Shown here piece by piece: positions 56,866 to 64,000 of a DNA stretch of 64,000 bases. Under the pieces are notes generated by a model, which was not told the origin of the DNA, ran no database searches, and saw nothing but the letters and a program-made list of their open reading frames with translations. A program made the position numbers and the translations under genes. The stretch is taken from positions 868,001 through 932,000 of the forward strand of contig JAIWZP010000007.1 of assembly GCA_025201375.1 (NCBI GenBank), read 5' to 3'. Position 1 is the first letter of the stretch, and every line of letters starts with the position of its first letter. The DNA comes from Gongronella butleri. Lineage: Eukaryota; Mucoromycota; Mucoromycetes; Mucorales; Cunninghamellaceae.

Positions 56866-58040
56866 TGTTCACAAGCAAGTGGGAGAAAAAAAAAATGGGA
56901 AAAAACGAAAAAAAAAAAAAAAAAAAAAAAAAGAAGAGGAACGCTTGGGCGTCGCCTGATATATTTTTTTTCGCAGCCCGCCGTGCCATGATTGGAGTTT
57001 GGAATGAAAACTTTACAATGCCAATGCCTCGTGTCACCAGCCGCGCTGCGCCGGCCTTGCCGCTTGGATCCAGCCCAAAAAAAAAAACACACACGCCGCT
57101 ACCGCTTGCCGCAGGGGCCTAAACGACTTTGCCATCGACGTGGCAATAGCGTGCACAATGCCAAGAAAACATTGTATCTGTTGGGACCCGAGCCCCAGAG
57201 AATGCGAGCCGTCGCGGTGACCCGAGTCGCCGCGGGGGGCGCATTGCGCGAAACAAAATTGGGTGGAACGGTCATGATTTTACAGTATTTAAAAGAAAAA
57301 TAAAGGGGATCAAAAGTAAGAGAGAGGGTTTTGGAACAGATGGATGAGATAAGGAAAAAGGGAAAGGGAAGGCACAAAGTGCCAGCCCTTTTACCGTATA
57401 TCTATGGAATTAAGGGGAAATAAAGGTCACTAAAGCACGTTCTTGGGCACACTCGTGTGAGATGGAATCTTGTGGGTTTTGATGGAAGGATCTGGCGAGT
57501 AATAGGAGCACCTTGTCGATGGTGGTGGAAGATTCCAGTGCTTGATAGGGGGGTCTTGGACTCTCGTGGAATCTAGTGGAAAGTGGGGGAATAATACGGT
57601 ATTCGGGGAAGCGCGAGGAGAGCCCAATGGGGCGTGACGAGCGCGTAAGAAAAGAAAAAAAATAAAATAGGCGCGATTGGCCAATGACTGCTTCCATTTG
57701 GTCTGTGGGCATAACAATATCATATCATAGCGTAGTACAGTATCGAAACGGCTATTCGCAATTGTGATCGGCGTTCGAACAAGATTATATACACAAAATA
57801 TGTTTAGTTGTTTAAAACGCATCCAACTAATTCTTTACCGACCAAATAATCACATGACCGCGACTGAAATCTACCCATGGGTCTAAACCTCCGGTGTCCC
57901 GGTGGGAGAGCAGCGTTTAATGCAATTAAAATGGCTTTTTAAACAAAGATGTGCAATAAAATGAACGCTGATCTATCATACTAGGCACAGGCACCTACGG
58001 TAATTATGACCGACCTCCTGTTTTAAAATTTGTTTTAAAA
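56866..58040. other. Unassigned DNA left of the two-gene mobile element
   Basis: Contains an A23-type homopolymer (about 56909-56932) and no supported gene. The left end of the two-gene mobile element probably lies between about 57700 and 58040, but I could not identify terminal repeats. Confidence 0.35.
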
Positions 58041-58125
58041 TTACCCCTCAGTTATGGCAAGCATATATTCTTGCACCATGTTCCCATCATCGTTAAATTC
58101 GTTCATTGATACCGGTAGCCACTTA

Positions 58126-59137
58126 CAGTAGATTATGGATATATCGGTTTCAAAAATTTTCGATTTTTTTGCTGCCGATATACAAAAAGCCTGCCAAATG
58201 CCGATATAGTGAGCGGATTTTTCTAGGTTTTTCGTCTTTTATATGTGAAGAATATGGGGTAGCTTTTGAGCAAAAAAGGGTGAAAAAGATAGAGACGTTA
58301 AGAATAACGAGAATGAAGTACCGTAAGTCTTTTATTAAAATGAAAAGATCTCGATATTTATACAAAAATGAAAAATGCCTAGACGGATAGGCTAGATGCG
58401 CAGACGCGTAAAATGAAGCTGTCGCGGCGTCTGAATAAGGAAACAGGGGCGTGAGACCAAGACATGGCCGCGCAGATCTCAAACAAAACGTTATGCCCAT
58501 CCCAGTGGATTCAAACATGCCAATGCTTGCAAGCACCGTGTTGTTTCACTTGGTGCGCAAGTGCGAGAAACATAATGGTTCGAGTCGTGTGTGTCAACAT
58601 GCAATGTTTGGCACGGAGAAGCCATTTTTTTTCTTTTGTTTCTCAAAAGGCATTGATCACTTAGTGATCAAAGCAGGCTATGAAACCGTGAGGGTGTGTT
58701 TCTACTTAAGCATCTGAGACAATGTGATGATGCGTACAGAGACCGAGATGGAGGAAGATGCGCATTCTTCCAAAAGCATGAAAAAGCGGTAAAAGGAGAT
58801 GACCAGCCGACAGCGGGCTTTTGTGACGAGCAGAGCGGGAGCATTACCCAATTGGGCAATGCCCGCTTAGAGGAGCGGCATGAGAAAGATCCAATTGCGG
58901 CAACAAGTCAGCATTTTAATTCTTTGATCGCTGCTTGCACTCGCATTGACGCGTTGAGCGCGTTTAAGACGCGCTTATGCTTTCTTTCGTTGACAGACCA
59001 AGCGTCTGTTAGGCTTTTCTTATTAAATCAAGCTCTGTAAAGCAGGCAAATACAACAATATGTAGACCATTTTTTGAAGGCTGCCGATATAGCGAGGAAA
59101 ACCGATATAGCAGAGCCGATATATCCAGAATCTACTG
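58126..59137. mobile_element. 1012-bp non-autonomous TA-flanked element (pogo/Fot1-like ends) inside the transposase gene
   Basis: Left end CAGTAGATTATGG and right end (complement) CAGTAGATTCTGG form terminal inverted repeats, with TA at 58124-58125 and 59138-59139. Subterminal TATATCGG motifs resemble those of the 199-bp element at 1678-1876. No intact transposase is encoded; the small open frames have no recognisable domain. It lies inside the chromodomain coding sequence of the transposase. Removing it together with one TA restores the frame. Confidence 0.85.
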
Positions 59138-60503
59138 TATTATATCTATTATCATATCCTATCCATTTTACTTTGTATTCAATGCCATTAGAGGTACAAC
59201 GATGTTCAATTATCCTCTCCACCTCATAGCTATTGTCGCCGTCATTATCTTGCATTATTATCTCTTCAGTCTCAATATTATTATTATTTATCTCTTCTTG
59301 TGCTAAGGATTCATCGATAGTAAGGCTAAAAAGCTGTTGTTGTATTATCTCTATCTTCTCTTTATGTGCACGCCTATCAGCAATACTTAAAATATCAACG
59401 ACATCATAAATAGAACTTGTAGAAGCAGCACCGCCATAAAAATCAAAATCTTTATGCATCCAAAACGTATGATGGTCTGTGTGTTGAAGTCGCCCCATAG
59501 CTATAAACTTTTTCATGTTGCTTAGCACGCATGCCAACTTGAATTGAACTGTAAAAACTGCATCATCAGACACGCGGATCACAGACTTGCCATTAAAACG
59601 ATGAAAAAGGTGACCAAGCTCTCCAAAGCGAGATTCAATTGATGATCTAAACCCACCAAGTAGCTGGTTATATGCAATTTCTTCTGCGCTAAGATTCACA
59701 CCTTTTGATTTTCTTATAGGAGTTACAAAGCTCTCTATTTGAAGGTGGGGGTTCATGCGTATTATGCGATCTCTGAATAAAGTATAACCTCCATCCACGC
59801 AAACGACATCAAAACGACTTATTTTATTAGACAAATCCATTGCAACCAGCATCGATCCATCGTTGTTTGTAGCACAAGGTGCTGCTGCTGATACAAATAA
59901 TATCATTCCATTAATGTCCATGCCTACTTGTGTCCGAAAACCGGCTCTTTTTAATTTGTATGAATAATAATCTGCTCTTGATGTCGCATTTATATACGTA
60001 GCTCGCGAATCATGGCCATCGATCAACATAGTAACATGCTTAAACTCATTAGGATTCATCTCTCGCGCAAGCATTACCCTAATTTTTATATTTGAAAACA
60101 TCTTCGCAAGGCAGTCATCCAAGGCGCCGTTTAACCATTCCAGTTGCTTTTTATAAAACACTTTATAAATAGCATTAAAACTGCTCTTTGGTATAAATTG
60201 CCCCATTTTTTGATCCATAGAGACCCCGGTCAGTAGTTGGTACAAGACCAACAGCCCTTTCTCCACGCCACGATATGGTCCAGGATATTCTCGTTTGCTA
60301 AATAAGACGGTTAAAAAGAAGTACACAGGCATGTAGCCCAAATGCTCAAGCACATAGTTCTTTACAATCTCAATTCCAACAATTCCTTTATTTTCAGATC
60401 GATGATTCATTGTATTTTCTACAACAGGCCAGTCCTCATTCATAAATGTCCAATGTGTTGTAACTAAATGTTGAAATAGCTGTCTTAAATTATCGCTCAT
60501 CAT
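59028..60503 (-). CDS. DDE transposase (DDE_Tnp_4/Harbinger-like) with chromodomain, interrupted at its end
   Basis: The present frame gives 491 residues. The DDE triad is visible as D162 (LIDGHDSR), D237 (VVCVDGGYTLF) and E290 (FRSSIESRFGELG). The spacing and the G-Y and R-E-FG motifs fit the DDE_Tnp_4 (PIF/Harbinger-type) fold. A chromodomain starts at about 426 (YEVERIIEHR, then EYKVKWIGYDNRYN). From residue 456 the present frame reads into the inserted 1012-bp element and ends in 36 residues that it encodes. Without the element the frame continues N-K-W-L-P and stops at TAA 58043-58041, giving 482 residues with a complete chromodomain. Chromodomains can steer integration to marked chromatin, as in chromoviruses. 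A fusion to this transposase class is unusual to my knowledge. Confidence 0.75.
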   Translation of the reverse strand: MMSDNLRQLFQHLVTTHWTFMNEDWPVVENTMNHRSENKGIVGIEIVKNYVLEHLGYMPVYFFLTVLFSKREYPGPYRGVEKGLLVLYQLLTGVSMDQKMGQFIPKSSFNAIYKVFYKKQLEWLNGALDDCLAKMFSNIKIRVMLAREMNPNEFKHVTMLIDGHDSRATYINATSRADYYSYKLKRAGFRTQVGMDINGMILFVSAAAPCATNNDGSMLVAMDLSNKISRFDVVCVDGGYTLFRDRIIRMNPHLQIESFVTPIRKSKGVNLSAEEIAYNQLLGGFRSSIESRFGELGHLFHRFNGKSVIRVSDDAVFTVQFKLACVLSNMKKFIAMGRLQHTDHHTFWMHKDFDFYGGAASTSSIYDVVDILSIADRRAHKEKIEIIQQQLFSLTIDESLAQEEINNNNIETEEIIMQDNDGDNSYEVERIIEHRCTSNGIEYKVKWIGYDNRYNTVDSGYIGSAISVFLAISAAFKKWSTYCCICLLYRA

Positions 60504-60656
60504 ATTTACTTGTCTTTTTTATAATAAATATGCATTCAAATAAAAGGCCGTTTTAAAAGTGGTCACGTGACACAAAATTTATGTGAAGAGCATTGTATAT
60601 TGAAATACAATAACAGACAGATTTTTTGCGCGGTCGTCTAATTCTTCTCCAATACT
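60504..60656. promoter_or_regulatory. Bidirectional promoter of the two-gene element
   Basis: Only 153 bp separate the two start codons. The stretch is AT-rich, with TATAATAAATATG near 60520-60532 and TATATTG near 60595. Divergent transcription is inferred. Confidence 0.45.
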
Positions 60657-62099
60657 ATGACTAACACTGTGAACACCTTTTTTTATGAACATGCCCAATA
60701 TCTCAATGATCTTTATGGCATTGACTACACTGAAAATTATGACAAATTTTATGGATGGACGGATTTTACGAGCATGTTTGTCGACAGCATTATGTTATGG
60801 TGCGCCGTGGATTATGAGTGCGACCCCGCCAAAAAGATCAAGTATTTTATAGGCATCATAAAGTCTACCCTCAATGATGTCTTTGCAAAAGATCAATTTC
60901 GCATGAAATTTGTCAGAAAAGGCAAATGGATCAGCTTTGACGATAAATCAGAGCAACTTGAGATGCGTCAGTCATGGGAAACAGTCGGGTATCTTGGTGT
61001 CAATATTACATTTCATAATATTAACTTTGTAGATGTCTTGCATTCAATGCGACAAGCTCTTGAGATGCTGCATGGTAATAGTATCATCTTACGGAGCATT
61101 GATGTGACAGTGGACTGTGCGCGTATTTCAACTCGTGAAATTATCGAAAAATACGTTTTGTCACACAATCTCGCAACTAAATCTGATATCGTAAATGACC
61201 GACGAAGTACTGGCGACAATTGCATTTCTTACCTTGGAAAGTCGGCTCAATTGAACAATGCAAATACACGTACCAAAATATACAATAAGTTTATTCAAGC
61301 TTTGGAAAGCTCCCAAGTATTTCAACACCTTGGATCGCGACTGAGTCATCTTGTAGCAGATAGTGACACATCTTATATGGCTAAATTGAAACGATTTTTA
61401 GATGCTGGCTTCACTAGAATTGAGCTGTCTGTTTACGGAAGCACACTCTTTGCACCCATTTCGTACGAGGATGCAATGAATGACTTATTGCAAAATCTGG
61501 CTACATGTCCTACGTTTAAGGTGTCGTTGTTTGAGCAATGGCATAAAGTTGTCGACAGGCTTTCTCAAGTCCTTGCTGTGTACATTGAGGAAACAGGGAC
61601 ATTTGCTTATTGTCATTGGTGGAATTCTCTTACAAAGCAAATGCAGGGACTTTGCAAACAGCAGGTTAAATTGGACGATATTGAATGCCTATTGGCGAAT
61701 TTCAGCTTCAGTAGTGACAGGGTTATTCATTGTTTTCATCTAGAGACTGTTGCTGAAAGCGCCTTCTCTTACAAAATAACTAAGCATGAACGCTACCAGA
61801 GAGCCACAGGCTGCACATCAATGACGATGGTGCCAGGGCTGTCCAATTCACTGTTTCCTTCTCGTAGTCGACTTCAAATAAATGACATTCTGTTTGCAGA
61901 CGTTGGCCTCGATATAGGGTTGTCTATCGAGAGTCTCGCTCGAAATCTCGATGGTCTCGAAGCGTATTCGAGACAATCGAGAAGCCTGCGATCTCGATTG
62001 TCTCGATTGAAATCAATTTGGATCTCGCTCGAAATCTTGATAAATCTCGAAAAAAAAAATTCGAGAGGATCGAGCGAGACAATCGAGAATCTCGATTGA
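60657..62099 (+). CDS. Rep-like protein of the two-gene element, truncated by hAT insertion
   Basis: The frame is 480 codons, of which about 419 are native. The remainder (from 61915) is read from the hAT terminal repeats and is not original. The middle region shows LRSIDVTVDC (D149, D153), then GDNCISYLGK (about 187-195), TRTKIYNKF (204-212) and TRIELSVYG (253-261). This order, with acidic residues in a beta strand, a GxxxYxG-like strand, an R-x-Y-x-K motif and an R-x-E-x strand, recalls the Rep_trans family of plasmid and phage replication initiators. The resemblance is by motif order only. No HUH motif is obvious. It could equally be an accessory DNA-binding protein of the transposon. The hAT insertion removed its C-terminus. 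Confidence 0.6.
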   Translation: MTNTVNTFFYEHAQYLNDLYGIDYTENYDKFYGWTDFTSMFVDSIMLWCAVDYECDPAKKIKYFIGIIKSTLNDVFAKDQFRMKFVRKGKWISFDDKSEQLEMRQSWETVGYLGVNITFHNINFVDVLHSMRQALEMLHGNSIILRSIDVTVDCARISTREIIEKYVLSHNLATKSDIVNDRRSTGDNCISYLGKSAQLNNANTRTKIYNKFIQALESSQVFQHLGSRLSHLVADSDTSYMAKLKRFLDAGFTRIELSVYGSTLFAPISYEDAMNDLLQNLATCPTFKVSLFEQWHKVVDRLSQVLAVYIEETGTFAYCHWWNSLTKQMQGLCKQQVKLDDIECLLANFSFSSDRVIHCFHLETVAESAFSYKITKHERYQRATGCTSMTMVPGLSNSLFPSRSRLQINDILFADVGLDIGLSIESLARNLDGLEAYSRQSRSLRSRLSRLKSIWISLEILINLEKKNSRGSSETIENLD

Positions 62100-62125
62100 T
62101 CTCGATTGATCTCGATATCTCGATA
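61915..62125. repeat. hAT subterminal CTCGAT/ATCGAG repeat cluster (right)
   Basis: Mirror copy of the 600-810 cluster, with many CTCGA/TCGAG hexamers in both orientations. These are likely transposase-binding sites. Confidence 0.7.
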
Positions 62126-62327
62126 TGTTTTTATCATACTGTACAGTACGGTACAGTAGGCTTATTTACAGTAGTACTGCCGCCAACCTTGTGCCGGTCA
62201 CTTTTTTTATGTGGCAACATGCCATCTTTCTTTTTATTGATTGAATTCATAATATGATATTGCATGAATTTACTGCAAGAAAAAAAATAGGGCTAAGGTA
62301 TAATAATTCAAGATAAAAAAAATAGCG

Positions 62328-64000
62328 TCATTCGTCAGCATCATCATCATCTTCCGATGACGACGACGACGCGTCCTCGTAGTCTTCATCATCATCGGAG
62401 ATGTGTTGTTCGTAAGGGTCGCGCTGTTGTTTTTGCAACGCTGCCGTCAGATCATCTCCATTGAGAAATCGTGTCCAGTATGAGGCCAGTAGCTGCTTTT
62501 TTGCATTTTCAGGCAAAATTCTGTTTCTCTGAGGCGTTCCCATCATGACGCGCGCTCTTGAAAACATGCGCTCTGAGGACGTGGATGTCGCCGGAATGCC
62601 TATGTAATCTTGAGCCATGTTTGCCAATCGTGGCCAACGTTGAGCGTGTTGTTTCCAGAATACAAGTGGGTAGTTTTCTCGGTCCCCACCGGGCACGCGC
62701 TCCATGTCAGGACGTGGTTCAGCCACGTATTCCTCCAGGTTGTCCTTTTGAGGCACAGGAACCTTTGGGTAATGGTGGCGTTTCAGAAGGTTTTTGATCA
62801 CCTTGCGTTTTTTAGCTGCCATAGGCGCCAATGATGCTGCAGAAGATGAGGTGGATGATCCTGAAGCACCGCCGCCACCAGGCGCATAGTTCGCATGCCA
62901 AACGTCCATCACCTTGGTCTTGCACAAAGATGCGTAATCAATCCAAGACGGATCTTCGTCCCAGTACCCAAAACGTTGGCGGGGCTCGATCGTTGTTGCC
63001 ACGGAATACACACTAGTCAAATCGGTCTTCTCGTAATATTCTGTAAGCTTCAACCAAGCTTGGTGCGCAGCGTGTCTTATGTCGGGATGGTAAATCTTGG
63101 TTTTTTGCCGCGCTTGACCGTCGCCGCCATTAGATCCATCATTCGTTTCGTGACCGTCGTCTTGGCCGGGCCGGAATGCATGTTCAAGAATGGCCAGCAG
63201 GTCATTAAAAACAGGTATCACCGTCACAATGGAAGGATAAGACACGGATGATGAGACATACGCTGTTGCGCGCGCAAAGCCCCGCAGGAGGTTCTTGAGT
63301 GTCATGATGTGGTCCCATTCGCCTTCCGTCAACAGGTACTTGGAAAGACCTGGATCGTGGCGCAGCATGGCCTCAATCGCCAGTCGGCACTCTATAGCGC
63401 GCTTCATCATGGCGTAGGTGGATCCCCATCTTGTACGAACGTCCATTATTAGTTGGCGAACTGGCTGATCCAAGTATTCCACCTTGTGGCATTGATTGTA
63501 GCGCCCTTTTCGTAAAGGACTCGCGCTATTACAGTATAAAGAAAAAAATAAGCAAAAAATCCAAATTCGCCGTTGTTGCGCGTCGAACCCCTCTTTTTTT
63601 TTTTTACTGTATCTTACCGTATTTGCACAATTCCTTCTCGAAGTTTTTTGAGCGCACTCGCAGGGCTCTCGTCCACAATGCCGTCCATGGTATTTTCATT
63701 TTGCTGATGATCTACCCGACTGTTGCTGTTGGCAGTCTCATCGACCGCAGCGATACCCAGGCCATCGGCCGCCAAGAATGTTTGAACGGCAAGGTTGATA
63801 ACATGCGCCATGCACGGCACATGTGCCTCCTTGGCGTTGATTGGATAGCTAAAACAACGGAAATCGCCGTTAAAAATCAAAAAGAGCGAGCAACGAGTTT
63901 TTTTACCTCCATTTTCCCGTTGTCTCCAACTCCAACTCCTTCATCATTCGCACATTTGCAAAGGCATTGTCAGTCGTGATGCTAATGACTTTGCTTTCCA
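62328..64000 (-). CDS. hAT transposase (5' end outside window)
   Basis: Visible exons in coding order are the end of one exon down to 63907, then 63848-63618 and 63525-62328, with GT-AG introns in matching phase. The exon open at the window edge starts with ISITTDN, the hAT motif that holds a catalytic Asp. HVPCMAHVINLAVQTFL and DVRTRWGSTYAM follow, both typical of hAT transposases. The C-terminal dimerisation domain (PLVFWKQHAQRWPRLANMA, then SSERMFSRA) and an acidic Asp/Glu/Ser tail end the protein. No frameshift or stop is seen in the visible part, so this copy could be active. The left copy at 3-392 encodes the same C-terminus. Confidence 0.88.

Follow-up and report, generated by a model that had tools for sequence, protein, structure and literature searches.

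A two-gene mobile element with long direct terminal repeats in the fungus Gongronella butleri

We have examined a 64,000-nucleotide stretch of the 33-Mb genome of the fungus Gongronella butleri (C78:868001-932000; this whole stretch is hereafter called the window, and labels beginning with C, L and P are our own), in which the gene of a DDE transposase with a C-terminal chromodomain lies next to the gene of a second protein. The comparison of this copy with the other copies of the same genome has revealed that the two genes are enclosed by long terminal repeats in direct orientation, and that the element inserts precisely, with a duplication of 3 bp of its target. Terminal repeats of this kind are the signature of retroelements, in which both are copied from a single template during reverse transcription. 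Here, we consider it fairly probable that they belong to a two-gene DNA transposon, built as repeat-internal region-repeat, in which the transposase would move the units and the second protein would be a DNA-binding or nicking partner.

Anatomy, insertion and repeats of the element

In its own genome, the second protein has 18 matches at 16 loci, the window included, and the transposase has at least 26 matches, both counts being lower bounds. An earlier interpretation of the window, made from the letters alone (the sequence-only reading), had taken the two genes for a mobile element, an idea to be given up if they never occurred together elsewhere; the transposase adjoins the second gene at 14 of the 16 loci, in agreement with that proposal, while the two unpaired loci (C78:362123 and C69) are truncated copies. 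The divergent layout that was described for the window is found at ten of the paired loci, the remaining four (C105, C52, C29 and C2) having their genes in tandem. Both genes are open in other copies of the same genome (L037-L039), and both, sometimes broken, are present in all 12 copies that have two repeats.

The pairwise DNA comparison of nine copies and the window has shown that near-identical copies have one sharply bounded unit in common; the element measures 3.7-3.8 kb, or approximately 5.0 kb in the C2 copy (L079). The alignment of several copies, which the sequence-only reading had suggested as the way to the termini, has led to repeats that had gone unnoticed in it: the termini are long direct repeats of 221-249 bp, which begin with GG and end with CC. 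The coordinates given in that reading cover both genes, with the left repeat of the window copy (57770-58018) lying outside them. Same-orientation repeats of 221-246 bp are located at the ends of L035-L041 and L043, the right repeat of L042 is shortened to 154 bp, and the repeats of the C2 copy are 244 bp long and 100% identical. At their outer ends, the repeats form an imperfect inverted repeat, with 7-10 matches in the first 12 bases across five families of the element.

The C2 copy, which represents family G, has an additional open reading frame (ORF) of 297 residues between the two genes (L079 2897-3787, minus strand), with repeated Cys/His-rich stretches and a single Pfam match at E 0.14, far under the cut-off.

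Matching 3-bp target duplications flank 11 of the 12 copies with two full repeats: TTT, TTG, TAA, ATA, CTA, TAT, TGT and AAA in eight copies, and TTT, TAG and TCT in C100a, C20 and C2, respectively. Left out of the 12 are C105, where the right repeat is cut, C78:362123 and C69, which have a single repeat, and the window copy. Solo repeats carry 3-bp duplications in 37 of 39 cases, i.e. 20 of 22 in a first set, where several edges were read by eye and one duplication has an altered last base, and 17 of 17 in a second set; the chance of one 3-bp match is about 0.016 at the base composition of the window. Duplications were read at the loci whose flanks had been retrieved: the solos comprise seven of seven in family A, seven of seven at 91% identity or more in family B, the six listed in family D, four of the six full-length copies outside C29 and C52 in family C, two of the five outside C2 in family G, two in family E (the weak matches C1:718580 and C1:1521238 being left out) and 11 in family F, where 13 of 37 matching repeats were read and two of these make up one deleted element. 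With the deleted element included, the second set has a duplication in 17 of 19 cases, the remaining two being the halves of that element: on C1, two family F repeats are located 50 bp apart, with CTA at the outer edges only, and this is an internally deleted copy that was inserted as one unit.

Empty sites, for which the genome was searched with the joined flanks, have been found for four of ten complete copies (C17 at 98%, C100a at 93%, C25 at 91% and C59 at 86% identity) and for seven of 14 solos (at 95-100% in four cases and 79-87% in three). The absence of an empty site says little, because only 40 of 861 candidates for the complete copies and 40 of 781 for the solos were scored; six of the 30 junctions of the duplication survey stand outside this search. 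These observations show that insertion of the element is precise and duplicates 3 bp of the target. One rearranged locus is of a different kind: a family F repeat without target duplication (L008 1263-1506, C78:361885-362128) abuts the truncated second gene of a family D element, the 5' part of which is missing.

The repeats are 58-72% identical between five families, over the aligned bases, whereas within an element they are identical or one change apart. The variants follow the element: in family A, one repeat allele occurs on both sides of C25 and C100a, and the other in C17 and C61; C100b of family B has in both repeats a 3-bp insertion that C45 and C59 lack; and both repeats of C52 (family C) carry a substitution relative to C29. 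From this match within elements, set against the divergence between families, we therefore infer that a copying process operates between the two repeats of an element; it need not be encoded by the element, and gap repair or gene conversion would suffice.

Beyond G. butleri, ten contig sizes are common to the lists of transposase and second-protein relatives (chance mean 1.6, maximum 7 in 5000 trials). Nine of these ten contigs are 3.36-3.99 kb long, about the length of one element, and we infer that the same gene pair is present in other genomes. The identities of the two proteins are correlated (r 0.90, over the nine inferred pairs and five families of our genome). A strict co-variation is broken by families A and B, which are 86% identical in the transposase and 64% in the second protein, compared with 70% and 66% for families A and C; this hints at an exchange of modules.

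The two proteins and the copy in the window

The transposase matches the Pfam family DDE_Tnp_4 with E 4.7e-9 (36.5 bits, cut-off 24.8), and its C-terminus matches Chromo with E 1.5e-6 (28.4 bits, cut-off 25.1) over positions 1-31 of the 53 of the profile, so that the chromodomain-bearing DDE protein of the sequence-only reading is real. A weak match to IS5 (E 0.0061), far under the cut-off, agrees with DDE_Tnp_4. The DDE residues D160, D235 and E288 (numbering of the L038 protein) are invariant in 39 of 39 aligned sequences. The association of a chromodomain with this class of transposase, which the same reading had proposed, extends beyond our genome: by our own count, a precomputed chromodomain is present in 87 of the best 120 of 166 transposase relatives. 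Both genes are real rather than fortuitous ORFs, with homologues in their own and in other genomes, and their named relatives belong mostly to the fungal orders Mucorales and Mortierellales (for example Apophysomyces, Rhizomucor, Rhizopus, Cunninghamella and Mortierella). Both genes are under purifying selection, the ratio of nonsynonymous to synonymous substitution (dN/dS) being 0.08-0.12 in the eight of 20 family pairs with computable dS, which is high even there.

The second protein, whose divergent position across a gap of 153 bp and whose four quoted motifs we have found in the window as described, carries IDVTVD, YLGK, RTKIYNK and RIELSVYG in that order. In 44 sequences, the motif order DxxxD, KxYNK, RxE shows little or no variation; D149, D153, K207, Y209, K211, R254, Y318 and H320-S324 are among the invariant residues, E256 is nearly invariant, and a YCHWWNS motif and a C-terminal region are also conserved. 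Fifty-seven relatives were found among 5.8 billion proteins, none of them with a precomputed Pfam domain, and the protein itself has no convincing match in Pfam, NCBIfam or the PDB; the best stray match, to a flavorubredoxin model at E 0.004, occurs in four of the 44 members. Neither a His-Me finger nuclease nor a Myb/SANT domain appears among the Pfam matches of the 44 members at E up to 1. Sequence searches of PHROGs and the PDB with the second protein returned nothing of note, scans of IMG/VR and GTDB contigs with two peptide patterns each returned no relative, and a profile search started from the 44 members yielded one new protein and no new family among its 50 hits.

Two observations concern single relatives of this protein. 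P0046 and P0050, at about 30% identity, are both listed with a contig of 54,482 bp; they apparently share one contig and may belong to an element of a different kind. P0057 is filed under a metagenome-assembled genome of a Nitrososphaerales archaeon and is perhaps a contamination, because the pattern scan of GTDB contigs gave no relative.

The sequence-only reading had likened the second protein to Rep_trans (PF02486), a family of replication initiators of phages and plasmids. As a yardstick, we have aligned 11 phage and plasmid proteins of this type, built around that of VGJ, which matches PF02486; the family is confirmed in six of the 11, the other five being assigned by similarity and annotation, and the scanned ORFs of phages XacF1, Pf1, SMA9 and B5 gave no PF02486 match. 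The invariant motifs of the yardstick are RxDxxxD, RxYxK (its first R at 90%) and WxRxE, in the same order as in the second protein, so that DxxxD, [RK]xYxK, RxE is common to both. The likeness does not extend to the profiles: hhalign gives a probability of 0.9% and P 0.061 for the second protein against the 11 proteins (P 0.35 and 0.69 in controls with the transposase profile), and in our own profile alignment, six of 200 block shuffles are equally good over a core picked by eye, and 20 of 60 shuffles over the whole profiles. PF02486 is above the Pfam cut-off in none of the 44 members, and our genome yielded no Rep_trans match. The two also differ in that the distance from YxK to RxE is about 45 residues in the second protein and about 15 in Rep_trans, and in the YCHWWNS motif and the C-terminal region, which are extra in the second protein. 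The resemblance is one of motifs only and may serve as a lead rather than as a finding; the family assignment suggested earlier is not established.

The features of the window copy are listed in Table 1. The transposase ORF extends over 59028..60518 on the minus strand, and the ORF of the second protein over 60642..62099 on the plus strand, with its start codon at 60657. Two inserts disrupt this copy, one in the chromodomain and the other in the second gene, where about 420 residues are left of the approximately 550 of full-length relatives. The insert in the chromodomain is 1016 bp long, its inverted ends being 96% complementary, and it has two layers: a repeat of about 205 bp (bases 1-123 and 935-1016 of the insert), the two parts of which are adjacent elsewhere in the genome, encloses a repeat of about 813 bp that is found at ten other places with 95-98% identity. 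The insert in the second gene contains an ORF that matches Dimer_Tnp_hAT, and TCTCGA-rich sequence flanks this hAT element on both sides. Because the hAT element probably extends to the end of the contig, the right repeat of the window copy is not in the assembly.

Table 1. Features of the element copy in the window (positions are those of the window)
Feature	Position	Strand	Remarks
Left-flank ATC	57767..57769		Predicted left copy of the 3-bp target duplication; partner beyond the assembly
Left terminal direct repeat, 249 bp, family D	57770..58018	+	Starts GGCGTTCGAACAAG, ends TGACCGACCTCC; six related solo repeats have target duplications
C-terminal end of the transposase ORF (remainder of the chromodomain and stop)	58041..58123	-	Severed by the insert; read against intact relatives
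Nested insert inside the chromodomain	58124..59139		24-nt inverted ends, TA at both edges
DDE_Tnp_4 transposase and start of the C-terminal chromodomain	59140..60503	-	Profile matches; DDE residues invariant
Divergent intergenic region, 153 bp	60504..60656		Separates the outermost start codons, 60503 and 60657
Second ("Rep-like") protein, first ~420 of ~550 residues	60657..61914	+	C-terminus lost to insertion
hAT-type element within the second gene	61914..64000		Start approximate; transposase ORF within 62331-63695, minus strand

Explanations of the element and its repeats

In the two-gene transposon that we favour, the transposase would bind the outer ends of the repeats, cut there and join the ends to staggered target DNA, with the chromodomain helping to select the target chromatin; the second protein would act on the repeats as a DNA-binding or nicking partner. 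Two routes would lead to solo repeats: the paired repeats would recombine with each other and, in family F at least, a repeat would also transpose on its own. One repeat would be renewed from the other by DNA copying, through gap repair or a one-repeat circle. To a further reading we assign only a low probability: the second protein would be a remotely related nickase of the Rep type and, by copying a circle with one repeat or by promoting repair across both repeats, would furnish each new insertion with two identical direct repeats, making these DNA-only long terminal repeat elements.

Several points weigh against this explanation. Its transposition is read from the sequence rather than directly observed, and at one copy, C50, the flanks are mismatched (ATT/AAT) and the repeat alleles are unlike on the two sides. 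No nuclease or DNA-binding domain has been detected in the second protein in the Pfam, PDB and profile searches; single-strand folding of three repeats gives no clear extra structure relative to shuffled sequences (z -0.93, -0.46 and -1.82); and the similarity of the repeats tracks the identity of the second protein no better than that of the transposase (Spearman 0.54 and 0.64, respectively, over five families). Only three variants are common to both repeats of an element, namely two substitutions and a 3-bp insertion. Transposase fragments on C54 and C34 occur without the second gene, and so does an intact DDE_Tnp_4-chromodomain ORF on C18 (L081 1397-2755), about 53% identical, which has no second gene within about 1.4 kb upstream and about 3.2 kb downstream, and no direct repeats of at least 80 bp in the 6 kb examined; C18 may be a single-gene relative or a copy adopted by the host.

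A possible explanation, to which we give clearly less weight, is plain IS5/PIF cut-and-paste transposition, where the repeats are mobile units similar to miniature inverted-repeat transposable elements and the whole element is a composite of two of them, with host gene conversion alone keeping the repeats alike and the second protein being a Myb-like DNA-binding helper. Solo repeats do have the GG...CC ends and 3-bp duplications of their own, and in family F they far exceed the bodies: the repeat has 37 matches and bodies occur at only two places (C105 and C69), and the left repeat of C105 recurs unchanged over 244 bp in three solos. This suggests that family F repeats also move alone, as has been proposed for the repeats of the animal transposon KolobokP (PMC9587614). 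What speaks for the two-gene transposon over a composite is that families A and B have common inner junctions, i.e. TTG after the left repeat in eight of nine copies (TCC in C61) and GTA before the right repeat in nine of nine, and that no inner duplications marking two separate insertions were noticed; moreover, the excess of solos is modest in families A (7 solos, 5 bodies) and B (7 solos, 4 bodies), where they can be explained by recombination between the repeats.

We regard as quite improbable a replicon similar to a plasmid or a single-stranded DNA virus, for which the second protein would be the rolling-circle initiator of a one-repeat circle and the transposase would serve only for integration. 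The order of DxxxD, KxYNK and RxE, the same in the 44 sequences and in the 11 Rep_trans-type proteins, and the match between the repeats of an element would be in keeping with it; it is opposed by the non-significant profile comparison and shuffles, by the lack of a Rep_trans Pfam match in all 44 members, and by the absence of origin-like structure in the three folded repeats. Lastly, we have rejected, as the least probable of all, a damaged or non-autonomous long terminal repeat (LTR) retrotransposon that captured two genes: its direct terminal and solo repeats would be LTR-like, but the ends are GG...CC rather than TG...CA, the duplications are 3 bp, every two-repeat copy has the same two genes (12 of 12), and these are the only ORFs of at least 150 residues inside five copies (L035-L039), where no dedicated reverse transcriptase profile search was made.

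Comparison with known systems

We have found no description of a fungal element with these features in the literature searched, a scope that left out Repbase Reports and most subscription papers. Direct flanking repeats that are mobile are also a property of the bacterial composite transposons of the IS26 type, which PMC9587614 also discusses; there, the flanking units encode the transposase, while the repeats of our element are too short for such a gene.

The PHIS superfamily unites PIF/Harbinger, ISL2EU, Spy, Pangu and Nuwa (Han et al. 2015, PMC4482050). As described in that paper, these elements resemble ours in their related DDE transposase, in having mostly two ORFs, and in the 3-bp duplications of several groups. 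They have terminal inverted repeats, whereas the long repeats here are direct and the outer ends are inverted repeats only imperfectly; their duplications are group-specific (TWA, ANT, CWG, TNA), compared with the varied 3 bp of our element; and their second protein is Myb/SANT, a YqaJ exonuclease or unassigned, so that our element fits none of the groups described there. The terms "direct repeat" and "chromo" are absent from the main text of the same paper. The closest candidate in PHIS, compared by description only, is Pangu, which is portrayed there as about 3.5 kb on average, with inverted repeats that usually start with AG or GG and a second ORF that is motif-less.

The nearest likeness in architecture is found in KolobokP, an animal DNA transposon with a DDE transposase and a homing endonuclease, known from seven animal phyla (Kojima and Bao 2022, PMC9587614). 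That paper describes a transposase of the Kolobok type that bears zinc finger motifs, repeats of about 450 or about 660 bp, a His-Me finger, and frequent multimers; among the loci that we have read, we have noticed no multimers of the form (repeat-internal)n-repeat, and the assembly may collapse long tandem copies. As described there, KolobokP has in common with our element the repeat-internal-repeat structure, the direct repeats with short inverted 5'-RR/YY-3' ends, the solo repeats with target duplications, and the location of the DDE transposase and the second protein on opposite strands, as in ten of our 14 pairs. Unlike KolobokP, our element is fungal, with an IS5/PIF-type DDE_Tnp_4 transposase and a chromodomain, repeats of 221-249 bp, and an unrelated second protein; by that description, the Kolobok transposase would differ from ours, which matches DDE_Tnp_4 and, weakly, IS5.

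The element is thus probably a second lineage of DNA transposons with long terminal direct repeats, with another class of transposase, once more a conserved second protein, an origin independent of KolobokP and, probably, a home in another kingdom. Two probably independent origins turn what was an oddity of the KolobokP type into a pattern, and provide a fresh test of how a DNA transposon keeps direct repeats alike without reverse transcription, and of the role of the second protein; young copies with identical or near-identical repeats, in a genome of 33 Mb, make for a tractable system. For annotators, the lesson is that an element with solo repeats and LTR-like ends is not necessarily a retrotransposon. 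If the second protein were a Rep-type nickase, the combination of a transposase, a nuclease and direct terminal repeats, shared with KolobokP, would be a convergent and general lifestyle of DNA transposons.

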